Shown here one piece after another: positions 1-52,815 of a stretch of 64,000 bases of DNA (the first letter of the stretch is position 1; the number at the start of each line of letters is the position of its first letter). The notes below the pieces were generated by a model, which worked only from the letters and a program-made list of their open reading frames with translations, did no database searches and was not told the DNA's origin. This stretch comes from Isoetes taiwanensis (lineage: Eukaryota > Streptophyta > Lycopodiopsida > Isoetales > Isoetaceae): the NCBI GenBank assembly GCA_021234155.1, contig JAJEKV010000100.1, positions 3,076,116-3,140,115 of the forward strand, given 5' to 3'. A program made the translations under genes and the position numbers.

Positions 1-941
1 AGGTAAATAGTCTCTTTCTGATAGATCTCCTTCCCCCATACTTTTAACCAATTCTTTATATTTATCGAGGTCCTAACCCACCAATCCATCCACCCGATAT
101 CATTACTAGGCTTATCTTCCATGTCCAGTATCTGAGCTAACTTGGCAAGGAAATCCTCATGATCCAACAGATTAGTATTAAGCTTAAAATAGGAATTCCT
201 TTTCCTCTGATTATTGTTGGCATTGATGGTAATAAGCTGAGGATAGTGATCAGAGATAGTGTAATTCGAGAGATTGGATACCCTAGAGCTGCTGTTCCAT
301 AAGGATTCACTAAGGTAAAACCTGTCATGGAGACAACAGATAGGCTGAATTCTGTGATTATTCCAGCTATAGGAATGAGGGACCACTCTTGCCAAATTTA
401 AGTGGTGGCCTGTCAGCAAAGTCATCCACTTATCATTCTCTTCCCCACTAAGGGCTCTGAAATTAGCACTCCTCATATAGTCATGAGTAACCATATTAAA
501 GTCTCCCCCCATTATAATCTCATCATAAGGGATACTATTCAAACTGTTAGAAATAATATTCCATAGCTGGGCCCTCTCAGCCGGCTGATGATAGGCATAA
601 ATATTCACCAGAGCAATCCTATTGTTCCCTATATTGCCATGCAAAATCTGCCACCTCTTACTATCATCATGCATCATTTGAATATCACTTAAATTAATCC
701 TATTATGCCATGCAATAGAAATACCTGCCGAAGAATTGTTTGCTTTCAGAGACCACTGATTAAAGTTAGTAGGCAACACTTCTCTAATTATATTATCAAT
801 ACTGTCATCATGGATCTTGTGCTCTTGGAAAAGAATGAAATCTAAATTCATGGACACAAGACAAACCTTCAACCTCCCTCTTTTCAGATTAGAATTAATT
901 CCCTGCAAGTTCCAGGTAATTCCCTTGAGATTTATGTCCAT
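1..941 (-). CDS. LINE ORF2, N-terminal AP endonuclease domain (partial, open at window edge)
   Basis: Reading the minus strand from the ATG at 941-939, the frame stays open for about 313 codons to the window edge with no stop. It shows the order of an APE-type endonuclease of plant L1 LINEs: TWNLQGIN near the N-terminus, QEHKI with the metal-binding Glu near residue 40, IYAYHQP, GGDFN, YSWNN, DRFY and SDHYP near residue 240. In this family the enzyme nicks target DNA to prime reverse transcription; the RT domain would lie off the left end. The ATG overlaps the ORF1 stop by a few bases (ATGGACATAA), a normal ORF1/ORF2 arrangement. The intact frame suggests a young insertion. Catalytic activity is not shown. 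Confidence 0.9.
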   Translation of the reverse strand, partial: MDINLKGITWNLQGINSNLKRGRLKVCLVSMNLDFILFQEHKIHDDSIDNIIREVLPTNFNQWSLKANNSSAGISIAWHNRINLSDIQMMHDDSKRWQILHGNIGNNRIALVNIYAYHQPAERAQLWNIISNSLNSIPYDEIIMGGDFNMVTHDYMRSANFRALSGEENDKWMTLLTGHHLNLARVVPHSYSWNNHRIQPICCLHDRFYLSESLWNSSSRVSNLSNYTISDHYPQLITINANNNQRKRNSYFKLNTNLLDHEDFLAKLAQILDMEDKPSNDIGWMDWWVRTSINIKNWLKVWGKEIYQKETIY

Positions 942-2895
942 TTAACTGGGGGTCTGGTTTTCCTAGGGGACCTTCTGGGTGGTCCCGTGATCATATTCTT
1001 CTCGTTTCCTTTTCCCTTCTTCCTTCTTCTTGTAACAAGGTGCCATTCCAGGCTCTGAAATTGATCCTGATCCAGTTCCTGATCAGAATTTTCAGAGTCC
1101 TCATTCATATCTATGAGCCAAGAGTTGGGCACCACCTGCCCGCTAGTACTTATGGAGGAAACCACAAAGTTAGTGGGATCAATACAAATAAGAAGCTTGG
1201 GAGGAAATTGCACAATAATTCTGCCTTCTTGGTCGATCCCCTGAAGATTGGGGATAGGTAGAGAAGGAGGAGTGGGGTCTTGGATAACCATGATTTCCTT
1301 GCTACTACCACTTCCTTCCTCTTTTTCCTCAACAATTCTGTTTTTGGGTTTCCAGACCTGATGCTTCTGATCAGGGATTTTTCCCTGACTTTCTCCTTAC
1401 CCTTATTGTTTATAGTCTCCCTCTGAAAATTAGCCACGGGCTCTTTAGAGTAGGATATTTGGAGATCAATAAATTTAGAGCTGCTAATTTTGCAGGGAAT
1501 TTTATCTACCCAGGGGGAGTGAATTTTTTTCTGAATACACACTGCCGGGATGCTGGTTTGAGGGATGGAGATTTGAATGACCTCTCCTAATTTACTAGCA
1601 ATGGCATTCAAATGGGAAACAGTCCAAAAACCAGGAGGGAGATTAGTACTGGAGATCCAAGTGGTAGTTGCAACTGTCGAAAAATCCCCAGGAACATAAT
1701 TCGGGTCCCATTTCATCAGATACACCATCATACCAAGAATAGAATGGATTTTTCTGGAATGGATATGGTTCACATTCCTCTCCTCCCTACATATGATTTG
1801 GAAAGTTTTTTGATCCAATTTAAGAATGGATAGAATAGGGATGGCCTGAGATTTTGTTATCCAATACTTAACCTCCCCGATAGAAGGGCACTTTTGAGGG
1901 AAGTGGATCAGAATACCATGCTTAGAATTTCTAATAATAGCAGAGTTGTCATTAATAGCATCCAAATCAAGAAGGTCCTCACAATCCTTATTAGAAATAG
2001 TACTAGAATTAGAAGGATTAGAAAGCAAAGCATTCTTATAAGATTTACCATTGATTTTGTCGTATATGCCTATAACTGGAACCGAAGACTTCAGCATTTG
2101 ATCAGAGATTTTCGTTCTATTCTTATCCAGGTTCTTTCTCGAAAGCATGTTACAGTTGGTACACTCACAACTGCCTGCCTCAATCGGATGGAAATAGCCA
2201 TTGCTATCCTGTATCTCGCATTTATTAGTCGCTTCAAGGGGGTACTGGTAAGCCATATACTCCATGTCCACATCCTTAAGAGCGTCACTGTCAAAAGTTG
2301 GCCTTTTGTTTTTGAACTCCCTCCGAAAGTTTTCTATGACATGGTCATCTGCCTCCTCCCATATTTTGACCAACCTGAAAGAAGCCTTTGATTTCCACCC
2401 TAAATCTTCTAATTCTTCAGCCAGACCCTTTGCTGCTTGCAACATTTCCGTCATTGATCTTCTAAAAATCTGATTCTTGAGACTGCAGCAGTCCTCTTTG
2501 GAGTGACCCGATTTAACCCTGATCAATTGGTATAGAAGAAGGTCCATTTCCTGAAGTTTCTGAAGCATCTGCCATACCAGATCTCTATCACTTGCCTTTC
2601 CCTCAGCATACTGGTTTTCCAGCCTCTGCATTTCCAACCTGCAAACTATAATCTGACCCTCCTTTTGTATCCCCATGCAAACTGCAGCGGCTTCCTGTTG
2701 TTCTCGGATAATATCAAAAGCAGCTTTAAGTTCTTTCATCTTAACCCATGTTTGATCTTTCTTACTATCGAGCACAAAGATTTGATCCCAGTATTTGATT
2801 ACCAAAATGGGATCCACATCCTTATACTCATAGGGAATCCTAGTTGAAGAGGAACTCCCTGCCTTTGGTTTCTCTGTGGTGGCTTTTGGCTTCAT
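932..2895 (-). pseudogene. LINE ORF1 (gag-like, DUF4283-type), one frameshift
   Basis: Two overlapping minus-strand frames (2895 to about 1380, then to 932) form one ORF1 of about 650 residues. The N-terminal half is charged and predicted helical. A Cys cluster (CECTNC) follows in the middle. The region with KWDPNY, LPPGFWTVSHLNAIASKLG and similar motifs is the DUF4283-like fold that binds LINE RNA in plant L1 ORF1 proteins. The C-terminal tail is basic (RRRKKGKG). The frame breaks in a five-T run at 1378-1382: downstream the other frame gives the expected VWKPK linker. A single-base deletion explains it; sequencing error in the homopolymer is the alternative. Otherwise the gene is open. Confidence 0.85.
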
Positions 2896-3138
2896 GGCAG
2901 GAAGATCAACCCGGAGAAAAGAAGATAGCGGGATTAGACGAGCCCGCCTAGGAAAGAAGAAGAGTGAAAGGCCTTCTGCAGCCCCAACACAGACACCAAG
3001 GAGAGGACAAGAAGAACAGTACCCGAAAAGGACCTAAAAAATCTTAAAAAATCTAAGAAATAAAAGAAAGCCAAAGGACGCCTTTTCACTGAAATTCTCT
3101 AACCCACTGCACGGAACCCCAAAAAACTGTCAAGGGTT

Positions 3139-3615
3139 CTAATTAGCTATAGAAAACCTCCAAACCACCGTATCAATTCCTGGAATGGTTCTTGCTGGTT
3201 CCATGTCGAAGAATGTGGCCCAATGGTAAATTGGCTCAACCCCGAATTCCACAGGACAACTCATAAGAAAGAGGTTTCTTTCGAAACTGTTTCCCAGGCT
3301 CAGGAAAGGCTGTGAATTATGTATGGCAACCCTTATGGATCCTTCCCTGTCAAAGCAAAGGATGCACAAATAGAATAAATTAAAACTAATTCTGCAAAAA
3401 CCAACTCTGGATCTTGTTTCAAAGGCTAATCTGATCAAATTTTCAACTATCAACACCGAATCATGATGATCCCAAGGAATTTGAGGGAACCCCAACCCCT
3501 GGAAAACAGCCTCTAGCAAGGCCTCATCCATCAGGGCTGTAAAATTCCCGGCAAATCCTCGAAAATTCGGGTCGGTGAGGAGAGGCGCGAGCTTCATTTT
3601 CTCCGCAATGGGCAA
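3139..3615 (-). CDS. Unrecognised 158-residue ORF next to the LINE 5' end
   Basis: An uninterrupted ORF starting MPIAEKMKLAPLL and ending VVWRFSIAN. It has a hydrophobic stretch near residues 78-93 and no motif I recognise. It ends about 240 bp upstream of LINE ORF1 on the same strand, so it could be an upstream ORF of the LINE or part of the DNA the LINE entered. Composition looks like coding sequence, but I cannot name a family. Confidence 0.35.
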   Translation of the reverse strand: MPIAEKMKLAPLLTDPNFRGFAGNFTALMDEALLEAVFQGLGFPQIPWDHHDSVLIVENLIRLAFETRSRVGFCRISFNLFYLCILCFDREGSIRVAIHNSQPFLSLGNSFERNLFLMSCPVEFGVEPIYHWATFFDMEPARTIPGIDTVVWRFSIAN

Positions 3616-3749
3616 CTCTTAAATGTTAGTTCCTATCAAAGCCCATCATCGTTTCCTTAATTATGTTTACTGCATATTCTGGACTCCTTATAGAGATCGG
3701 ATCTCCATTACTGTAACTGTCAAAGTTAGAAGTCCATCACCTGCCATTT

Positions 3750-3890
3750 GATGTAGCTGGTGTATTTGGTGGCTCTTTATTATTCAGTGCTATGCATGGT
3801 TCTCTAGTAACTTCAAGTTTGATCCAAGAGACCACGGAGAATGAATCTGTTAATGCAGGCTATAAGTTTGGTCAAGAGGAAGAAACTTAT
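3750..3890 (+). pseudogene. psbA: Plastid psbA fragment (NUPT)
   Basis: The plus strand translates to [43 protein letters not shown], which is the D1 protein of photosystem II across the well-known TTENES/GYRFGQEEET segment. It is an internal piece without start or stop. One extra codon after GGSL and Q for R in the LIRETTENES segment show decay. Such a piece inside nuclear transposon sequence is a plastid-to-nucleus transfer. It ends abruptly before the NIVAAHGYFG segment. Confidence 0.9.
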
Positions 3891-4536
3891 TTTGCATGTA
3901 TTAAGCATATAGCTAGCGTTTGTTCTGAGCCAAGATCAAACCCCTCTTTAACAACAGAGATTTGAACTGTTAGGTTATGAGAAGCGTAACGGGAGAAGGC
4001 AGAGATGGAAACAGAAAATGAGAGACGAGAGGCTCTGACATTCAAAACAATGTGCTCATTTGCTAAGCCGTGATAAAGGGCAAATACAAAGAATTTGTTG
4101 TTCATTTTTTATCAATCATTCCAATTTAGTTTAGCTCAGCCTTATCTTTCTCCTGCTCATCGGTCATCTGAGATTCATCTCGTCATATCATACATAATAG
4201 AAGAGTCAGTATGAAGTAAGAACGGAAGCAGATACGTCTATCACACTCGTACAATCCTCGTTCACCTACGGGATACGGAGATGGAACAAAGATAGATGAG
4301 ATAGATGTTAACAAAAAGAATAATTTATCATGGCTTGGAGTCCATCAGAATAATTTGCCACTATTTTGTCGATACCAGCGAAAAGAAATGAACAACACTA
4401 AAACAACCATTGTTTAAAGCAGTTGTGTTGTTGGGGGACTACCTTCTTATCTTTTGGCCTACTGAAACAGAATGCTAGCTCTCCGAAGCGAGCGAAGGCA
4501 TGGTCCACCTTCCGCTGAATGTTATGTTGAAAGGGG

Positions 4537-4824
4537 GGATAGATGGGGCGATTCAAGTGAGATCCATGGGGATTTGACCTTCCATTCACTCGTGGGATCC
4601 GGGCGGTCCAGGGGGGGCCAGTCATTTATGGCTCCTCTCTTCCTGAGAATCCATACATCCCTTATCAGTGTATGGATAGCTATCTCTCGAGCACAGGTTT
4701 CAACCAAGATGTGAAAAATGGAGCATCTAATAACGCATCGCATCTTCATGGACCAGGAACTACGAGATTACCCACGGAAGTCTTTCATTCCGGGTGACGG
4801 AGGATCGGATCGTATCATTTGAGC
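4537..4824 (+). pseudogene. trnI-GAU: Plastid trnI-GAU group II intron fragment (NUPT)
   Basis: The stretch GGATAGATGGGGCGATTC, then CACTCGTGGGATCCGGGCGG, ATCCATACATCCCTTATCAG and TATCTCTCGAGCACAGGTTT, then AACTACGAGAT and GGTGACGGA matches the 5' half of the plastid trnI-GAU intron in the rRNA operon spacer as I remember it from seed plants. The tRNA exons are absent. With psbA about 650 bp upstream on the same strand, this suggests a rearranged plastid fragment. Bases 3891-4536 may also be organellar, but I cannot place them. Confidence 0.85.
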
Positions 4825-4859
4825 TATTTCCGCTTCTTCCCCGCCTCAATGCGGGGAAA

Positions 4860-6830
4860 CAACAATCAATATTATCTTCCCTAGAAGCCTAACCAAGACC
4901 GGATCCAACCAAGGGCACAAATGGTCTCCACTGGTATGGTATTCAACCATGCTACAACAAAAGCTGCAACTTGGTGTTGTGGTGGTGTGAACCCCGCCAT
5001 AAGAGCTTCTTAGGATTCTTGCGCCAGTTTGGGATGTTTGGGAAAAATGGTTTGGGATGTTTGGGAAAAATGGTGTAGCGGATGGTGTAGCGGAGGGAGG
5101 GAGGTGACATGGGTGTGTGTGGACATGACCGATGGAAGGCAGGCGTGAAGTGCCAACTTGGTGAGTGATGGGAAGGGAGCCGGGTGGAATTATGAGAATT
5201 TGGTGGTGTGGGAGGAAGTAGTGACGGATGAGGGCTTGAAAGTGGCCTCCCACGGAAACTTGAGAAATGGAAGTGGTACCGGGCGGTCCATTTCTTGGAG
5301 AAGACGATAGAACATCATTTGGGGCCAATCTATGTGGTGTTTGGAATGTGTAGCGGAGGACCAAAGTTATAGAAAGGCTTATTGATATGGGTGTTCTTGA
5401 TAGAATACCCAAAATTTTCGCCATGCAATTTTTACAAAGGTTTCGTGAGGCTTGTCGATATTGGTCGAGACGATGGACATTGGCATGATAGCGAGTGCAC
5501 CAAACTCTTGTGACATCGATATCACATATAGCGGACCATGATACACAAAGGGTGTGTAAGGAATATGAAATACCCTAAAACTGCAAATAATGTTGAGTCA
5601 ATCTAAATATGGTGCCATCGACCACAAGTGGTGTAACTCATGGGTCGTTAACGATATTATTAAGGAACTGGCCGTGAATCAATGGATTTGGAGCCTAAGT
5701 TCCATTTTGAGAATTCGTAAAGCTGGTGTCGCTCAAATACTTCTTTCTTTATTTGGGCCAACAAGTGCTTCTACCTGAAGTGGGCCAAGAAGGAGACATG
5801 CAAAAAGGGCTTCCGGACTGGGGAGCGTGAGCTTGTAGTGTAGAAAATCTTGGGCAAATGCATATGGGAATGTGATGCGCTGAACGGTGAGGGCCAAAGG
5901 CGGAAGACGAAAATGAAAGCACGGAGGACGGCGCTAGAGGAAAACGAAAAGCATGATGAAGCCCAACTGGAGGCGAAGAGGTATGAAGAGTGCGAACGGA
6001 ACCGGTTGGATGGTGCCAAAAGTCAAAAGATGCGAAGAAGGGTATTGAAAGGCAAAATTTGGCTAAGTCCCAAAAAGCGTAAGGGAGAAGCAATGAACGG
6101 TGAGGATGAGGCGGAAAGAAAGATCGGATGGGACGATGGCAAAGGACACCCATTAATGTTCACAGGCGTGGAAAGAAGGAATGGCATTCAATGCTGGCAA
6201 CTCAAGTGGGATATCATTAAAAGAATGTGTCGGAAGGTACCATGGCTAGATATCTTGTGAAGCAATTCTCCTTTTAGAAAACGACCTTGCATTGCAAAAC
6301 ACGTTGGCGATTTGTGTGATTGGTCCACGTCGACAAGGAGTTCCTCGCTTAGCTATATAAGACGAACCGAGAGAAACAAAGGCATCCGATGGGCGCTCGG
6401 TATGGGTTTCACTGGCTTGAACGAAGATTGCACAATGCCCACTAACCGCTGAGTGGATCACTTGTAAGATGAATTGTTCGGATCTCGGCGCCGCCACAAC
6501 CGCATTCGCATGGAGCGGGGTGGTGTGTTGGGATGGCTGAACATCCCGCCGAAGACCAACGGGATGGAGGTGGTTACGCACCTTCTTGGGATCCGGAAGT
6601 AAACCTCTACCATCTCCTCCGCATCACCTCAAAGCTCCGGAACCCGTAGTAGAGGGTTTTTCCTCTTAGGACTTAGTAGATAGGGCTCGGGAGCCCGTTT
6701 TTGTATATATAAGGCGTGCCCATAGCGAAAATAGCTGGGCGGCGCCCACATTTTGTAAAAAATCTCCACTATAATATAATCTACACGCCTTTCTAGTCAC
6801 TTTCGTGGTGTGTGCTTCTTGAACTGTCTA
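4860..6830. other. Unassigned region with weak coding remnants and two TATA-like sites
   Basis: No reading frame is convincingly conserved. TATA-like sites in similar context occur at about 6350 (GCTATATAAGACG) and 6705 (GTATATATAAGGCG), both reading plus, so part of this may be an LTR or promoter of an unrecognised element. It abuts the 3' end of the minus-strand gypsy pol near 6830, where that element's 3' LTR should be. No LTR copy matching the right-hand candidate LTR is seen. Confidence 0.3.
5850..6260 (+). CDS. Lys/Arg/Glu-rich ORF, possible Myb/SANT-like fragment
   Basis: A 136-residue ORF (MGKCIWECDALNGEG...) with a highly charged middle resembling a coiled linker and a C-terminal segment RRNGIQCWQLKWDIIKRMCR. 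The N-G-x-Q-C-x4-K-W-D-x-I pattern resembles the third helix of SANT/trihelix domains in plant transcription factors and Harbinger accessory proteins. The resemblance is short, so this is tentative. No partner transposase is adjacent. Confidence 0.3.
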   Translation: MGKCIWECDALNGEGQRRKTKMKARRTALEENEKHDEAQLEAKRYEECERNRLDGAKSQKMRRRVLKGKIWLSPKKRKGEAMNGEDEAERKIGWDDGKGHPLMFTGVERRNGIQCWQLKWDIIKRMCRKVPWLDIL

Positions 6831-13858: not shown

Positions 13859-13949
13859 AGGCCTTCTGGCCCTAAAACCGTTCAGCTTTTCTATCCATGC
13901 CCTCAATTCTGTCGCCCTTCTTCGAGGAAGAACACAAAAATCCAAATAG

Positions 13950-15060
13950 TTTTTTTTTTTTTTGAAGGACTTGAGCCTTTATTATCCAGAGAAAGTTACA
14001 GAGTACAATGGGGACTAATAACTCAGTGGAGAGAATGTCCACCAGAGCAAAACCACCCCACTCAAATACAACGTCTAAACAATATGAAGAGTAAGCAAAA
14101 ACTCATAAGTAAGTATGAATCTGAAGATAATGCTCCCAAATACGGCTCTTCACCTCATTAGCAATTGATGAGCACCTGAATGCTTTGACAATTCGTTGTT
14201 GGGCATCAAGAAGGATCTGTGCATCTGAACAAGCAAGACCTTTGAATATGCGAAGATTCCTTCTTTTCCAAATGGACCAAATGATCCATGCAGAAGCCAA
14301 ATGAAATGCCCTTTTTGCCAAATTGTCCCAACTACTTGGATAGACTGCTAATAACACCTGTTGGCTATTCAAATTGCAACGAAAGAGGCCTTGAAGCCAC
14401 AGCCAAGCATGTCTGACATGTCTACATAGGAAGAAGTAATGCTCAATTGTCTCGTCCCTTTGTGCACATAAGGGACAAAGTGCAGATATCTCTGGACGAA
14501 ATCTTTGCACCAGAATATTAACGCGCAGACAACGATGAATGACTTTGGGATGGAGTAGTTTATCCCATACCCATTTCCATACTGCTTTCTGCCGATCCCT
14601 AGGAATGACCAAAGGCCACTTGGACGAAGGAGGCAAGACGTCCGCAACAAGCAAGACGTTGTACATGGAATTCACCAACTTATCAGCTTTGACACGCTCA
14701 TGAACTACCCAAGGCTGGGGGTCATCCACTTGTGCTACTGGAGGAAGAATTGAAGACACCTTCTGCCAAATAGCTCGATCCCACCTTAAAAGGAGGAACT
14801 TAGCTCTAAACTCTTCCCATATCAGCAACTGCCTTTGATTATTATACCAATCAGATATGGTATACACACCTGCTGCTCTCCATTGACGCTGCGTCAATGG
14901 GTGAACTGAAGATACCAAGGGACCACCGTCCAATGGAATCCACCAACAACTTGCAGCAGTGCTAGTGTGCGCAAGATGGTGAAAATGAAACAGAGATTGT
15001 TACAGTCTCCCATGCAACTAGCAATCCTCTAAGAAATGGGGACGCATTAGAATATGCGGT
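13950..15060 (-). mobile_element. 5'-truncated L1-type LINE, 3' end with poly(A)
   Basis: The minus-strand copy ends in a 14-base poly(A), seen as poly(T) at 13950-13963. Just before it is GTCCTTC, preceded by GATAATAAAGG, a likely polyadenylation context. Coding sequence continues rightwards to about 15060, where homology stops, a typical 5' truncation. The same terminal GTCCTTCAAAA occurs on the ORF1-only element at 43-46 kb. I could not match a target duplication. Confidence 0.8.
14103..15050 (-). CDS. LINE ORF2 C-terminus with zf-RVT domain (5'-truncated)
   Basis: An open frame of at least 276 residues, extendable upstream to about 15050 without a stop, shows the plant LINE ORF2 C-terminal zinc-binding domain (zf-RVT): WKWVWDKLLHPKV, HRCLRVN, ISALCPLCAQRDETIEHYFF with the C-x2-C...H...C pattern, then WLWLQGLF and ASAWIIWSIWKRRNLRIFKG. 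In this family the domain follows RT and is thought to aid template binding. RT itself is absent. The frame is remarkably intact for a dead copy. Confidence 0.85.
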
Positions 15061-31097: not shown

Positions 31098-31775
31098 GTA
31101 ATTTTTAAGAAATAAAATAATTTAGCTATTCCCAAAGCGGAAAAGTTTTGGACGTCCAAGGTTTAGCCAGGATTGGCTATAGCATAGCATGTTGAATCGC
31201 CTTTTTTGAAGCTGATTAGGTGCTTTGATGGATATTGAATTTGAATCTATATGTAGTTTATGAAGAATGTAATGTAGTGAGCATTTTAAGCTTTAAGTAA
31301 TGGTGATTTCTTCTTGCAATTGTTGATCCTAAAAGGCTCCGTGCACCAAGTTAGCCATTTGAATGCATTTGACCCCAACTTAAATATATGTATTCCCTCA
31401 AATGGTATTGTTTGTTCCTTATCAACTTTCTTATCATTTTGTAATAGAAGCATATTGAATCAGTTGCCATTCATGTGCTAATGAGTGCTCATAATTTGAA
31501 GTTAAATTGTTGCCCTTTAGGTACCAATCAAGAAAAATTTGCCAACAGAAGAATTTCATATCATATTAATTTTATAGTTTAAGCAAGTGGGAAGATAACT
31601 AAAGGGCTTTACTTTATCAAATTTAGCCAAAACAAATCTATAAACTTTTGTTTTTCTTAGGTTTAGGCAACTCTAATTTGGATAGGAAAACATTTAGGGT
31701 CCTTAAAATTCATCCTGATGCTATTTGCATGAAAACTTAATTCATTCTGACCGACTCATTTTCCTAAATTCACAG
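31098..31775 (+). repeat. Long inverted repeat, arm A (in GDSL intron)
   Basis: From TTTTTAAGAAATAA to TTTTCCTAAAT this is homologous to the reverse complement of 33965-34757. Shared blocks include AAAAGTTTTGGA, TTTAGCCAGGATTGGCT, ATAGCATGTTGAATC, ATTGTTTGTTCCTTAT and TTGAAGTTAAAT. Arm A has a deletion of about 60 bp near its inner end. No ORF. Confidence 0.85.
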
Positions 31776-33964: not shown

Positions 33965-34757
33965 CATTTAGGAAAACCAGTGGGTAGTATGTGGGACCAT
34001 AATCTGCAAAGAGATGCTGATTAAGAATGCAATCTCTAGCATCTGCATTAGATGATGCTCTAAACTTTCAGGGTAAAATTTAAGGATTCTAAATGTTGTC
34101 CTATCTAAATTAAGATTGGCTAAACCTAAAAAGAACAAAAGTTCATAGATTTTTTTTGGCAAAATTTGATAAAATAAAGCTTTGTAGTTATCTTCCCACT
34201 TGGCTAAACTATAAAGTTAATATGATATGAAATTCTTCTCTTGGCAAATTTTTCTTGATTGGTACCTAAAGTGCAACTATTTAACTTCAAATTATGAGCA
34301 CTCATTAGCACATGAATGGCAACTGATTCAATATGCTTCTATTACAAAATGATAAGAAAGTTTATAAGGAACAAACAATACCATTTGAAGGAACACATAT
34401 ATTTAAGTTGGGGTCAAATGCATTCAAATGGCTAACTTGGTACATGGAGCCCTTAAGGATCAACAATTGCAAGAAGAAATCACTATTATTTAAAGCTTAA
34501 AATGCTCACTACATTACATTCTTCATAAACAACATATAGATTCAAATTCAATATCCATCAAAGCATGATTGAGGTAGCTAATGGGAATTCCTAAATGGAA
34601 GAGGTCCTTGAATAAATTTGGCATGGCTATTTAAATTGATCACGGTGCACCTAATCAACTTCAAAGAAGGTGATTCAACATGCTATGATGCAGCCAATCC
34701 TGGCTAAATCTTGGACATCCAAAACTTTTCCCCTTTTGCTTATTTCTTAAAAAATGC
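33965..34757 (-). repeat. Long inverted repeat, arm B
   Basis: Reverse-complement partner of arm A, about 2.2 kb away. The two arms bracket the GDSL exons downstream of exon 1. Arm B is the more complete copy. A transcript through both arms could fold into a stem of roughly 650 bp. Confidence 0.85.
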
Positions 34758-42502: not shown

Positions 42503-43073
42503 AGAACCATCTTTTTTCTTAACAAATAATACTGGAGCACCAAAAGGTGAAATAATAGGTTGTATGTATCCTTGATCTAAAAGTTCTTTTAACTATTTTT
42601 TTAGTTCCACTAGCTCTGACAAAGTATTTGGAGCTTTTGATGGAGGAGAAGCTCCTGGAACCAATTCAATCGCATGATCAACATATCTTCGAGAAGATAA
42701 CTCCGTCAACTCTTCTGGAAACACTTCCTTGAACTCCTCGAGGATGTCTTGCACATCATTCATGTATACTTGATTAATTTCTCCTGACCCTTTGAGTACA
42801 AGCAACCCCAACCTTTCATGCTTCCTAATTGACCTCTTGATTTTCTTGCGCTAATGGGTTTAGAAGTAAAGTACTGCTTATTCAATCCTTCCAGTGTATA
42901 TAGCTCATGATGTTCCTTAGATTTTACTCTCACAATTCTTTCATGACAATCTACTATAGCATGCACCTCACTAAGCCATTCCATGCCTATAATCATATCA
43001 TATGAGCCTAGCTGAAGCACATGGAAATTTGCAATTGTAGGCATTTCTTTCACTTTCAATTTTAATGCATGCA
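42260..43073 (-). pseudogene. Ty3/gypsy RT N-terminal half and protease end (nested element)
   Basis: Right to left: protease C-terminal part (MHALKLKVKEMPTIANFHVL, LGSYDMIIGMEWLSEVHAIV), linker (DVQDILEEFKEVFPEELTEL), then RT ([42 protein letters not shown]). One frame change near 42805 and one stop near 42595 are the only breaks. RT stops at 42260, where the phosphatase gene begins, so the YxDD box, RNase H and integrase are missing. Confidence 0.85.
43060..43073. repeat. Target-site duplication, left copy (14 bp)
   Basis: TTTTAATGCATGCA, repeated at 45710-45723. On the gypsy minus strand both copies encode H-A-L-K. Removing one copy plus 43074-45709 restores the protease frame. Confidence 0.9.
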
Positions 43074-43117
43074 TGGCATGAATTCAAGTTCCACTAATTC
43101 ATCTCACTAAGTCTGCA

Positions 43118-43146
43118 GCGCCCTTCATCTCATGGCTGAAGGGCGC
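43118..43146 (+). promoter_or_regulatory. Perfect 10-bp hairpin at the 5' end of the ORF1-only element
   Basis: GCGCCCTTCA and TGAAGGGCGC separated by a 9-base loop, about 45 bp from the element start. It may structure the 5' end of the RNA. Confidence 0.6.
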
Positions 43147-43159
43147 TGGTGATGGCGCC

Positions 43160-43500
43160 TAGGGTTTCAGCCCCGTTCGTTTGCACATAACTTTTGATTC
43201 CCATGTCAGATTTTAGTGATTCTGGGCTCGTTGGAAAGCTCGTTGCGTGCTCTTTCCGTTGGTATAAAGTTTGTATGACGATTGGACTGTTTTGGTAGCG
43301 GATAATCGTCTGACAGTTCCGGCCCTTTATTGGTGGTGTTAGGGTTTGGCTGCAATCTTCTTTTTGCCATAACTCTATTTGGTGGCAGTTTTAGGCGTGC
43401 TTGGGCTCGTTGGAAAGTTTGTGCAGTGCTACTTCCAGTGGTACTTAAATTTTTCAGAAGTTACTGGTTTGTGGGGGACTGTAGAGCTCTAGAATCTCGG
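43160..43500 (+). repeat. Internal duplication in the 5' UTR
   Basis: Two diverged blocks at about 43185-43275 and 43365-43450 share ATAACT, GGGCTCGTTGGAAAG and a CTTCC/TTCCAGTGGTA-type end. Tandem 5' monomers are known in L1 promoters; here the resemblance is structural only. Confidence 0.6.
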
Positions 43501-43511
43501 CCCCCCTTTTA

Positions 43512-45370
43512 GTGGAGATGGCAAAAGCAACTCGTAGTCCTTCCAAGCGCTCCTCTGGTAGTCCTAATGGAACACAGGGCAATTGTGGAAGGGAACATGC
43601 TTTAGATTCTCCAAAGATTAGTGTTCGAGATGCCCACAAACTGGCTCGTGAAGGTGCCCCTTCTTCTCCTAAGAGTTTGGTATCAGCCGTGGAAATTGGA
43701 TCTGAGGGGCAGGAGAGGCAGGCTTCTGTGCACCTCAATCCATTGGCATTGCCTCATGCTCCTATTTCTTCCAGTAGCATATATGTACCTAGTTCAACTG
43801 AGGCAGCAGCTTCCACTTTCTCCTCTTCTCAGCTTGTTAGTCCAGTGTCTGACCCTATGCCTCATGATTCTAGAGGCAGTGTGGTACAGGTGACCCAGGA
43901 AAGCTCCTCTGAAAAGGTGGTACTTCCAAATGCACCTCCAACACATGTTGGAAGTTCTTCAGAACAAATGAGATTAGCAGCTCCTGCTCAAAAGAGTGTG
44001 ACACAGCTTGCATCCCCAACACATGTGGAGAGTCTCTCACGCGGAGGAGGCTCTTCTGGACAAAAAGAACATCGAACGCATGTTGGAGGTTCCTCAAGGC
44101 AGGAGGAGTTTCCCCCTCTTCCCTCGAATAAGCATGGGATACCTTTTTCTTCTTCCACGCCACCTGCCTCGACCTCTACACCGTGGAGGTCTTCTGACAC
44201 AGTGGCAAGGGTTACAGGTGTCCGTTTCTCTGAGTGGCTATGCAAAGGTATGTCATCTCCAGCCACGTCACTTCGTGTTTCAGAGGCCATTGCCACCATG
44301 GTGGACAATAATAAGAAAGAAGTTGCATCCTATCTTCAGCAGTTGCAGGCCAAGCAGGATTCCTTGGATATTTTATTACCACCAGCTGAAATTTTTTATG
44401 AGGTTCAGAAGTGCAGGTCAACTTTTGAGCGCTTTGGGGCCCCTGTGGTGCAGATCAGTCATGAGACTCACCGTCGTCATGTGGAGCAATTAGTTGCATG
44501 CTCTGTTGTTTGTTACTTCACTGACCCCTTCTTGGATTTGAAGCGCGTTGCACAAATTAGGGCTTCCTGCATATCAGTCGATCAAGCTCGTGGGCAAAGA
44601 TCAACGTTGTTTTCTCCTAATGTTTGAGTCCCCTGAGCCGGTGGCTCAACTCATAGAACGAGGTGTTGATCCTTTGTGGAAACATTTCTTGTTGTATTAG
44701 CAGTATGTTCCTGGCTCTTTTCCAGGTAAGCCAGATGCCTTGCGTGCTCCATTCTGGATTGCTATTGAGGATTTTCCTCCAGAATTTCAAGATCCTGAGT
44801 TCATTTCTGCTATTGCTAGTGAGATTGGACTTCACTTGCAACATGCTATAACCAATGGCATTACTAAGATTTGTGTAGCACGCCCTATTCATCATGATCT
44901 GCCTCAGACAATTGTTGTTCAAAGTGGGCCCATGTTCTTTCCATTCAAGCTACGTTTGTTAAATGGCCCAGAGCTAGCTCTCATGTTCCCTAAGGCCCCT
45001 CTCTTTGCTCAATTTCGTAAGTCTTACCAGCAGGCTCCTCCGGTTGCCTCTGCCACAAATCCTACTCCTAGCTCTGCCCCTTCTTCAATGGATGTCTCTT
45101 ATCCCCCTACGACTTCTTCTACTTCTTCTCTGACTATTCCGGTTTCTTTGGTCCAGCCTACCTAGCTGCTGGATCAGCGAGCAAAGGTTGGATGAGATTG
45201 AGGAGGTCGCAAGAGGCGGTGGAGGCGGCTTCGTGGGCGATACATGGACATTGATCGTCGTGGTGCCCACCCTCCACCTAAACATCCACCCGGCTCTTCA
45301 TCAACCTCGAAAGTCGACTAAGGGTTCTAACCCTCTGCATCTCGGCTCTCCTCTACACTTGCTATCGTGA
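43512..45370 (+). pseudogene. LINE ORF1 (gag-like) of the ORF1-only element
   Basis: The first frame (43512-44627, 371 residues) is a Ser/Pro-rich N-terminus with repeated THVGSSSEQ, THVESLSRGG and THVGGSSRQEE units, then a folded part (WLCKGMSSPATSLRVSEAIA...). After a +1 shift near 44610 the frame continues LFLLMFESPEPVAQLIERGV, APFWIAIEDFPPEFQDPEF, IASEIGLHLQHAITNG and KICVARPIHHDLP, a DUF4283-like RNA-binding domain of plant LINE ORF1. It then runs to a Ser/Pro tail, stop at 45163. A further basic segment (RGRYMDIDRRGAHPPPKHPP) lies in another frame to about 45330. Very few lesions for about 600 residues suggest recent activity. Confidence 0.85.
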
Positions 45371-45709
45371 TTGGGATCCTTACTGCGCATGTGGTGGCTT
45401 TGCTCCCCTTGATTGGGCTGATTTGGTGAAGATATCTTGTCTTGTCGAAGGACCAAGTTGCATCTTCAAACTCTCACGAGATTCCGGTAGTCATATCGGT
45501 TTTGGCGTATTACGGGGGTGAATCTTTGGTTAGACTCTTAAGCGAGCCTTATCTCCTTTTACTTATCTAGTATGGAGTAAGCACATGGTGTCGCAGGCTC
45601 GTGTTCCAGCAGCATCCTCTTGTGTTTACACAACTAGATGAGAAATATTCATTTTGTACTTTTTCTTGCTCATTAATAAACTTTTTGTTCGTCCTTCAAA
45701 ACAAAATTT

Positions 45710-45723
45710 TTTTAATGCATGCA
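45710..45723. repeat. Target-site duplication, right copy (14 bp)
   Basis: Second TTTTAATGCATGCA; see 43060-43073. Confidence 0.9.
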
Positions 45724-46078
45724 CATACTCACTAGTAGCTTTTCGCTTACTATCAGCCATTTTCACCATTCTTAAGGCTTGTTGGTTAGTATTCAACCCA
45801 AACAACTTGACAAGCCTTGGTGAAATAAAGTTGTGAGTGGCTCCCGTATCAATCAAAATACTAAAAGGAACTTCATTGGTTTTACCTTCAACTTGCACTA
45901 CATGTGCCTGCAGCTGTGCTGTCCCTTGATCAACTGCTACACAAACTTGCATAGCTTCCTCTAAATTTATGAGGGTTGCCTGATGAGCTCTCATTGCCCC
46001 TACATTCTGAGATCCTTGAACCTTGGCATTTGAGTTATTCTTCTTAGGACAAAAACGTGGCCTATACCCCTTTTGCTT
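45724..46078 (-). pseudogene. Ty3/gypsy gag C-terminus and protease active site
   Basis: Open on the minus strand: KGYRPRFCPKKNN (second half of a CCHC zinc knuckle), a linker, VEGKTNEVPFSILIDTGATH then NFISPRLVKLFG with the D-T-G-A protease active site, and ending SEYVHAL at the LINE insertion. It continues into 43059-42260 once the LINE is subtracted. The right end is cut by the DNA transposon at 46079. Confidence 0.9.
46075..46078. repeat. 4-bp target-site duplication GCTT, left
   Basis: GCTT directly outside the left inverted repeat; the same four bases follow the right inverted repeat at 57353-57356. Deleting one copy and the insert joins the two halves of the zinc knuckle in frame. Confidence 0.85.
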
Positions 46079-46099
46079 GGGTAGAAGCATGAAAGGGTG
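46079..46099 (+). repeat. Left terminal inverted repeat of the Sola-like element
   Basis: 21 bp starting GGGTAGAAGCATG. Its exact reverse complement is at 57332-57352. Confidence 0.9.
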
Positions 46100-46869
46100 A
46101 TTGAATTTTTTTGTGTATTGATGTAAAAATTTGAACTGGGTTAAAGGGTTTGTAATGTACATTTTGAATTTTACATGGAGTTGCCTATCATTAATAAAGG
46201 CGGTTGACGTACAATATTCTCCATAATTATACCAAATCCTCCCGAAATCTTGTACTAGCTTCTCTATCAATAAAATCTAAATATCTTGCCTGCGGAAAAA
46301 AAAAAACTTTGGCGCACATTTTGAACTTTACTCAATCGATCAAACATGGCTCCGGATTCTACCTCAACGAAAACTTGGCCCGAATCGATTATAGCTGCTC
46401 TTAAATCGAATGCATTTCAAGAAACAAATGTATCTTGAACAAATTGAAATCCCTTTCCTTCAAGCGATAATACAAATCCCTTCAAGCGATGAGTACAAAT
46501 CTGGTTAATAATCGATTTCTTGTGCGGGGATGTTGTATCCCCTTTGCTGAGAATGGATCGATGTCTTAAAGCACCGGTTGAAGAAGAAACTATGGAAGAA
46601 GGATTGGACTCTCATGCAAGCACTTGAGGTCGACATCGGGTTCATTTTCAATCCTCCTGTTGATGAAGTTTAGGAAAACTTTTGTTACAAGCGAGCAAAA
46701 GAAAATCGAAGCAGAGAGGGTTTGTAGGGGTGGATCGTGACAAAGCCAATTAGAAGAAAGGTGAATGCTTACGTAAATCTCATAATGAATGAGGTATCTA
46801 ATTTGACTCCAAAAGCGACAAAAGTATATTTGCAAGAAGATTATTGCGGGACAAAAAGATTGCAATTCC

Positions 46870-50129: not shown

Positions 50130-50913
50130 TCAAAGGAAAAGGGCTATACTCAATGTGGAATATTCCTTTCAATGTAATAAGGAATATTCTTGATAACTAT
50201 GCACTAAGGAATATTCCTTTCAATGCAAAAGGAATATTCCTTTCAAAAACAAACTAATAGGAATATTCCTTGTAACTATGGGTGCATAAACAAACTAAAA
50301 ATAATGTTCCTTTGAAGGTAATAAGGAATATTCACGATAACTAAGCTAAGGAATATTCCTTTCAATGCAATAAGGAATATTCCTTTCAAGGTAATAAGGA
50401 ATATTCCTTGTTATCTCTATATTGTTGACTCACGCTTTACCAAACACAATATGCATAGGCACACAATATGCCTTAACATAATCCATTCATTTGGCATTTG
50501 TTGATTTGGCAATTTGTTGATTTGGCAATTGTTGAGGAACATTGAATGCATGTGGGATATTTGAGCCAATATTCCTTGTAACTATGGGTGCATTAAACAA
50601 ACTAAAGAATATTTTTGAAGGTAATAAGGAATATTCACGATAACTAGGATAAGGAATATTCGTTTCAATGCAATAAGGAATATTCCTTTCAAGGTAATAA
50701 GGAATATTCCTTTCAAGGTAATAAGGAATATTCCTTGTTATCTCTATATTGTTGACTCACGCTTTACCAAACACAATATGCATAGGCACACAATATGCCT
50801 TAACATAATCCATTCATTTGGCATTTGTTGATTTGGCAATTTGTTGATTTGGCAATTTGTTGATTTGGCAATTGTTGAGGAACATTGAATGCATGTGGGA
50901 TATTTGAGCCATT
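50130..50913 (+). repeat. Array of AAGGAATATTCCTT palindromes and a ~170-bp direct repeat
   Basis: At least 14 copies of the 10-bp palindrome GGAATATTCC, or one-base variants, mostly as AAGGAATATTCCTT, separated by TCAATGCAAT or TCAAGGTAAT spacers. A longer block (GTTGACTCACGCTTTACC to GGGATATTTGAGCC) occurs at about 50398-50568 and 50722-50911; the second copy has one extra TTGTTGATTTGGCAA unit. Confidence 0.9.
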
Positions 50914-52196: not shown

Positions 52197-52815
52197 GTGT
52201 GTATACCACACCAAACCATGCACCATACCATGCCCCACACTATCATATTCACCCGAGCAGGCACATCCCACCACACACCACACACCCCACCACACCCACA
52301 CCATTCACCACACACCATACACCATAGACCATACACCAACTATCATATTCACGAGCAGGCACATCCCACCACACACCACCCATTCACCACACACCCCACC
52401 ACACACCCCACCACACACCACCATTCACCACACACCATACACCATAGACCACACCAACTATCATATTCACGGGCAGGCACATCCCACCACACACCACCAT
52501 TCACCACATACCCCACCACACACTCCACCACACACCACACCATTCACCACACACCATACACCATAGACCATACACCAACTATCATATTCACGAGCAGGCA
52601 CATCCCACCACACACCACACCATTCACCACACACCATACACCAAATGGTGGAGTGTGGAAGCGGTGGTGGAGTGTGGTGGTGGGGGGGTGGTGTGGTGTG
52701 TTGTGTGGTGGTGGGGTGTGGTGGTGGGGGTGGTGGTGGTGGTGGTGTAGTGGTGTGTGGTGGTATGATGTGGTGTGGTGGAGTGTGGTGGGGTGTGTGG
52801 TGTGGTGTTGGCTAA
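52197..52815 (+). repeat. CA-rich minisatellite switching to GT-rich
   Basis: Four repeats of CATATTCAC...GAGCAGGCACATCCC start at about 52244, 52344, 52464 and 52586, embedded in ACCACACACC tracts. At about 52648 the composition flips to GGTGGTGTGGTG tracts until 52815. The two halves are complementary in character, so the region can fold back. The GT half is G-rich enough for quadruplexes. ORFs here (Thr/His/Pro or Val/Trp/Cys) are artefacts. Confidence 0.9.

Follow-up and report, generated by a model that had tools for sequence, protein, structure and literature searches.

Among mammals, the L1-type HAL1 ('half-L1') elements encode ORF1 only, have kept their coding capacity while spreading and are thought to use the ORF2 protein (ORF2p) in trans (PMC3627910, citing Bao and Jurka, 2010; PMC4161310); for HAL1 in guinea pig, one of these reports argues from a conserved ORF1 to an ORF2 protein acting in trans (PMC3627910). 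When tested in cultured cells, Pol II transcripts that L1 mobilizes are reported to have required ORF1p besides ORF2p (PMC2666806). In plants, DUF4283 is described as a conserved domain of LINE ORF1s, and Celine of poplar, a LINE of the plant L1 clade, as possessing DUF4283 in ORF1, a 5′ UTR, a short 3′ UTR, a poly(A) tail and a target-site duplication (TSD) (PMC11288735). Plant SINEs and L1-like retrocopies, which likewise carry poly(A) and TSDs, are reported to be moved in trans by LINE machinery (PMC3747384; PMC4838847), SINEs being described as non-coding and transcribed by Pol III (PMC9033089). A non-exhaustive search of open-licence papers (titles and abstract starts of those listed) returned no description of an ORF1-only LINE family in plants, in agreement with a remark in the first-pass annotation of the locus discussed here that no standard plant example was known.

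The window analyzed is the whole 64,000-nt stretch at 3,076,116–3,140,115 (forward strand) of contig JAJEKV010000100.1 in the Isoetes taiwanensis assembly GCA_021234155.1. Positions 43074–45709 are a clean insertion into the protease of an element of Ty3/gypsy type, as one RVP_2 (aspartyl protease) domain is divided between both flanking frames (profile positions 10–66 in 45629–46276 and 83–134 in 42763–43083; Pfam) and RVT_1 lies further on in the host element (Pfam); the host is presumed to be of Ty3/gypsy type from its domain order, RVP_2 followed by RVT_1. The insertion is bounded by an exact 14-bp TSD, TTTTAATGCATGCA, the 5′ copy at 43060–43073 and the 3′ copy at 45710–45723, of which no third copy occurs in the window, and removal of the element with one TSD copy restores a minus-strand open frame of 288 aa across the flanks. 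The inserted element is probably one copy of a non-autonomous, L1-type half-LINE family of plants, to which the ORF2 protein would be supplied in trans and in which ORF1 would have been selected. Elsewhere, the window contains an inverted repeat of ~500 bp (93%; 31221–31718 and 34068–34565) and groups of short direct repeats (50157–50911 and 52209–52636).

The window copy, all parts of which lie on the plus strand, opens with a copy-specific 5′ extra of 59 nt between the TSD and the family start (43074–43132), which among the fetched loci matches L013 only. The 5′ UTR, delimited by comparison of copies, runs from the family's common 5′ end, TGGCTGAAGGGCGCTGG, at 43133 to 43517 and includes a diverged 42-bp repeat (43223–43264 and 43402–43443; spacing 179 bp, 81%); with the common 5′ end present, 5′ truncation of the window copy is ruled out. 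Homology to the family's ~675-aa ORF1 spans 43518–45533 (end placed by eye) and is broken here, the frame from the ATG at 43518 stopping at 44625 and the next frame lying between stops at 44698 and 45166. The DUF4283 part (44599–44892) matches the ORF1 of a full LINE at the left edge of the window (tblastn E 1.3e-6) and scores 16.1 bits in Pfam, below the cut-off. The 3′ UTR (45534–45697), whose last part is 71–75% identical to the 3′ end of the LINE-P family introduced below, is followed by a short, mixed A-rich tail of 12 nt, AAAACAAAATTT (45698–45709, placed from the sequence and by comparison of copies); most other copies examined have a plainer poly(A).

Much of the first-pass description of this copy survives. 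The complete insertion with a 14-bp target duplication is borne out by the exact TSD pair and the open rejoined flanks. Endonuclease (EN) and reverse transcriptase (RT), said to be missing, were found nowhere inside the element: Pfam at E≤1 on frames 43485–44624 and 44701–45162 gave a weak DUF4283 only, and a LINE ORF2 compared by tblastn with the whole window at E≤0.01 matched 3–941 alone. The 5′ UTR and the ORF1 start are present as stated, the correction being that the common start lies at ~43133 and the first 59 nt are specific to this copy. A long ORF1 is present too and is longer than first described: homology to the family's ORF1 reaches ~45533, the frame end at ~45165 stemming from decay of the window copy; the A-rich tail likewise exists, yet is short and mixed.

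The window element is one copy of a dispersed multi-copy family. When the window's own assembly (1,658,258,908 bases, 1110 contigs) was searched and the best 40 of 2328 first-look candidates were scored, all 40 places, window included, matched, the other 39 at 81–93% identity in their main piece; these 39 loci, L009–L047, were fetched at 4.5–6.6 kb each. The scored copies were picked by likeness to the query rather than at random, and the list extends as far as partial matches scoring 1666 bits. Half of the scored copies (20/40, window included) span the query from position 73 or earlier to 2620 or later. The common start TGGCTGAAGGGCGCTGG, often preceded by GGGTTT, is present with at most 4 mismatches in 23 nt in 25 of the 39 fetched copies, the others beginning further in, and the common 3′ end, AATAAACTTTTTGTTCGTCCTTC-poly(A) or a near variant of it, in 30 of 39, with the remaining nine not reaching it within the fetched DNA. 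In 29 of the 39 copies nothing is inserted between ORF1 and the 3′ end, and some of these have small deletions or 5′ truncation; the remaining ten (L012, L030, L037 and L041–L047) end early or are interrupted. The unit measures ~2.6 kb, with a 5′ UTR, a single ORF1 of ~675 aa containing DUF4283, a short 3′ UTR and poly(A), dispersed with TSDs and without EN or RT, and a lone internally deleted LINE is ruled out by the existence of this dispersed family. In the tree, shown without support values, close pairs occur in more than one lineage (L009–L036, 97.4%; L014–L032, 97.2%).

Flanking sequences differ between copies except in two duplicate pairs, L013 with the window copy and L016 with L034. 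The first of these is peculiar: L013 (G000:C909:3162387-3166991) is the same insertion as the window copy, with the same flanks and 44 kb away, yet identity between the two is only 90% and the L013 branch carries most of the change, as in an odd, lopsided duplicate or a poor assembly.

TSDs were scored by the best match without gaps between the two flanks of a copy, words of more than 80% A being excluded, at the 29 loci with a recognizable 3′ end (the window and 28 of the 39; as duplicates, L013 and L034 were left out). A score of at least 11 was attained by 14 of the 29 copies, window included, versus two of 348 mismatched pairings (Fisher P 8e-16), by which chance TSDs are ruled out; at a score of at least 8 the counts are 17/29 versus 39/348, and at 13 or above 12 versus 0. 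The 15 copies without a TSD at score 11 include some that are 5′-truncated or old. Further copies with the same ends and independent TSDs, which the first-pass annotation had named as the check on its reading, are thus at hand. In the 11 copies measured, 3–59 nt separate the TSD from the common start. Extras of 16–59 nt that differ from copy to copy were observed at the 5′ side of L020–L022, L025, L027–L029 and L035 and of the window copy (43074–43132); of the nine long enough to be searched against the fetched loci, only that of the window matched, in its duplicate L013. Such extras could stem from transcription that began upstream at varying sites, or from template jumping.

A fully open ORF1 was found in only one of the 40 copies, L009, where it extends from an ATG at 1349 to 3373 of the oriented locus and encodes 675 aa. 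L021 has a 677-aa stop-to-stop frame that ends before the C-terminus, and the longest frame among the other 38 is 578 aa (L012). In Pfam, the L009 protein (673 residues searched) contains DUF4283 at 33.6 bits (cut-off 27.2; E 3.5e-8), the only family listed at E≤10, with no match to the mammalian L1 ORF1p family. Serine and proline are abundant in its N-terminal part. A large protein set yielded no ORF1 homologue at E≤1e-3 (7994 candidates scored), and solved structures none at E≤1.

Further kinship is seen with a LINE of another family that was used for comparison and that occupies 3–3033 of the window on the minus strand, with ORF1 containing DUF4283 and then ORF2, before running off the window and continuing in L048. 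Its ORF1 (627-aa frame; DUF4283, 54 bits) is identical to the family's ORF1 at 24 of 105 residues by blastp (E 1e-7, two proteins having been compared), and it matches 19 of the 39 fetched copies, in addition to the window copy, at DUF4283 with E≤0.01. A CCHC knuckle, sought with a simple pattern, was not found in the L009 ORF1 or in the ORFs of this LINE. Its ORF2 is unbroken in L048 (1214 aa with EN, RT and zf-RVT), and the LINE may be young; as a direct helper of the element it is rejected, as its ends have no nucleotide match to the element.

The first-pass annotation had held that ORF2 in other copies, between ORF1 and the tail, would speak for a deleted LINE instead of a family. With the ORF2 of the full LINE as probe, none of the 39 further copies matched at E≤0.01 in the 4.5–6.6 kb available per locus, a span within which nine of the copies stop short of the common 3′ end, so that these nine might have ORF2 further away. 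Pieces of the LINE-P family used as probes located LINE sequence at two of the 39 loci, L042 and L044, and only at L042 is it joined to the element: there, the element's first 1.7 kb runs into a C-terminal segment of LINE-P ORF2 that has a 3′ end of its own and poly(A) (oriented 3683–5260), the two matches overlapping by 3 nt at the junction. L042 is placed inside subfamily B, near L018 and L026 (tree without support values), and a TSD around it was looked for and not found; either a template switch or two adjacent insertions may account for this locus. At L044, an antisense LINE-P-like ORF2 piece (oriented 3655–3960) lies downstream of a copy that ends at query position 1720, nearly the position of the L042 junction (1721).

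The LINE part of L042 led to LINE-P itself, for which the best 40 of 2868 candidates were scored. This family has RVT_1 and zf-RVT (Pfam) and, in L059, a putative EN stretch (tblastn E 1.3e-9), an 87-aa piece of which gave nothing in Pfam. The last ~130 bp of the element is 71–75% identical to the LINE-P 3′ end, and the 3′ end of the window element matches eight of nine LINE-P loci at 72–82% over 34–138 bp (best E 2.7e-18); among these loci, L050 and L057 represent a single copy, and L049 corresponds to L042. Of the LINE-P copies L049–L059 none reaches ORF1, all appearing truncated inside ORF2, and neither the best 40 family matches nor the LINE-P copies yielded a full LINE that shares the element's 5′ end or its ORF1. 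The comparison with full LINEs sharing the element's ends, also suggested at first pass, could be made for the 3′ end, where LINE-P is related, no copy being long enough at the 5′ end. In view of 3′ ends that are merely 71–75% alike, LINE-P as sampled is best regarded as a relative of the putative helper, not the proven helper. A LINE piece related to LINE-P, with a 298-aa frame for the ORF2 C-terminus (42% aa identity), also lies in the window at ~13940–15050 on the minus strand and ends in AATAAAGGCTCAAGTCCTTC and poly(A).

These data bear on the idea that the copies are recurrent by-products of a full LINE, made from spliced, prematurely polyadenylated or internally deleted RNAs that retained ORF1 and the LINE 3′ UTR, with selection acting in the full LINE. 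The LINE-like 3′ end of the element and the union of its first 1.7 kb with the C-terminal part of LINE-P ORF2 in L042 are in keeping with such an origin. It is nevertheless unlikely: the structure from ORF1 to the 3′ end is shared by 29 of 39 copies; ORF2 sequence is joined in L042 alone among the best 40 places; and L042, being nested in subfamily B with a 3-nt overlap, is better accounted for by a template switch or neighbouring insertions. Moreover, because the list of matches descends to partial ones of 1666 bits, any full LINE bearing this ORF1 at comparable identity would be expected in it.

Evidence that ORF1 was maintained comes from an alignment of 36 sequences (35 loci and the window; L043 and L045–L047 were too broken to be included). 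For counts by column, L013 and L034 were also dropped and columns with fewer than 20 letters skipped; for comparisons between subfamilies, the majorities of groups A, B and C were used (8, 11 and 8 members, or 27 of the 36 sequences), five codons gapped in the group A majority being skipped. Singletons are flat over the three codon positions (348/309/336), whereas states common to at least three copies lean to the third (94/105/130). Relative to their sites, ORF1 differences between subfamilies are mostly synonymous, dN/dS between majorities being 0.25 (A–B), 0.28 (A–C) and 0.29 (B–C); the A–B comparison comprises 66.5 synonymous changes over 490 sites and 55.5 nonsynonymous changes over 1517 sites. 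Around DUF4283 (residues 340–545), the A–B changes number 27 synonymous versus 7 nonsynonymous, while the N-terminal part is laxer (18.5 versus 32.5). The third-position excess over singletons is significant for A–B (Fisher P 3.7e-5), A–C (0.006) and B–C (0.004), and for A–B within residues 340–545 (4e-6). In the A–B comparison this excess sits in transitions (16/18/51 by codon position). Transversions between majorities (A–B 7/16/14, A–C 4/10/12, B–C 3/6/2) and among shared states (12/23/22) show no third-position excess; few in number, they do not support selection on ORF1. When 12 single copies were each compared with their own group majority, dN/dS ranged from 0.26 to 1.13 and fell below 1 in 11, values that mix inherited and later changes and depart from the simple neutral decay to which the singletons point. 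With between-subfamily dN/dS of 0.25–0.29 alongside flat singletons, ORF1 was probably under selection during spread, and it can be held with moderate confidence that source copies kept a working ORF1 and that insertions decayed afterwards.

The same counts weigh on two further explanations. A passive, internally deleted LINE, in which ORF1 is cargo and its protein has no role in spread, would suit the broken frames of most copies and the transversions without third-position excess; set against the between-subfamily dN/dS and the third-position excess over singletons (A–B, P 3.7e-5; residues 340–545, P 4e-6), this account is very improbable. Quite improbable, too, is a family of processed pseudogenes, derived from a host gene with DUF4283 and mobilized by LINEs, even though poly(A), TSDs and flat singletons fit it, L1-like retrocopies have been reported in dicots (PMC4838847) and a host gene could likewise yield a dN/dS below 1 between age classes. 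At odds with a host gene are the homology of the element's 3′ UTR to a LINE 3′ end, the identity of the ORF1 domain with that of plant LINE ORF1s and the close pairs in more than one lineage.

For a half-LINE family with a selected ORF1, the following course may be envisaged. Pol II would transcribe the RNA from the 5′ UTR; the RNA would be translated to ORF1p, which would bind its own RNA (cis preference); and the ORF2 protein of a LINE would nick the target and reverse-transcribe the element RNA from its poly(A) tail. Movement in trans by a LINE's ORF2 protein is suggested by an element that has no RT, yet shows TSD and poly(A) as in L1. The helper would most likely be a relative of LINE-P, whose 3′ end resembles that of the element, and if plant L1-clade LINEs recognize poly(A), as one author proposes is presumably the case in flowering plants (PMC3747384), a close likeness of 3′ ends between element and helper would not be needed. 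Copies with a working ORF1 would be favoured through the action of ORF1p on its own RNA, which would explain the selection on ORF1.

A bipartite LINE, whose helper lost or replaced its own ORF1 so that ORF1 (on the 2.6-kb RNA) and ORF2 (on the LINE-P RNA) became obligate partners on two elements, is extremely improbable, and just as little weight is given to mixed particles and occasional RNA switching, as in L042, as parts of the same scenario. The arrangement is conceivable because no LINE-P ORF1 was seen, yet that is no evidence for it since the few copies examined all appear truncated inside ORF2. On balance, the HAL1-like, ORF1-only reading put forward at first pass is supported by common ends, independent TSDs, signs of a selected ORF1 and the joining of ORF2 in L042 only.

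If plants have such a family, with an ORF1 of another kind and a selection signature of its own, the half-LINE way of life would have arisen independently. The family would also offer a natural test of the effect of the little-understood DUF4283 ORF1 protein on its own RNA, apart from the reverse transcriptase, and the presence of such families may account for some of the gene models resembling LINE ORF1 that plant annotations contain.

Measured against an autonomous plant L1, the family has DUF4283 in ORF1 (L009, 33.6 bits) and lacks an ORF2 with EN and RT. Like Celine, it combines a DUF4283 ORF1 with a 5′ UTR, a short 3′ UTR, poly(A) and a TSD; unlike Celine, for which a 3765-bp ORF2 with EN and RT is described (PMC11288735), it yielded no ORF2. 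With SINEs and retrocopies it shares poly(A), TSDs and, presumably, movement in trans by LINE machinery, but it codes for a LINE protein, whereas SINEs are non-coding and retrocopies derive from host genes. HAL1 offers the nearest parallel, the plant family being likewise L1-type and ORF1-only, with an ORF1 apparently kept by selection during spread; the two differ in that the plant ORF1 is of the DUF4283 type and in that kinship with LINEs is known from the 3′ end alone, no parent LINE having been matched. The plant family works like HAL1 and, its ORF1 being of the plant DUF4283 type, is not a member of the HAL1 family.
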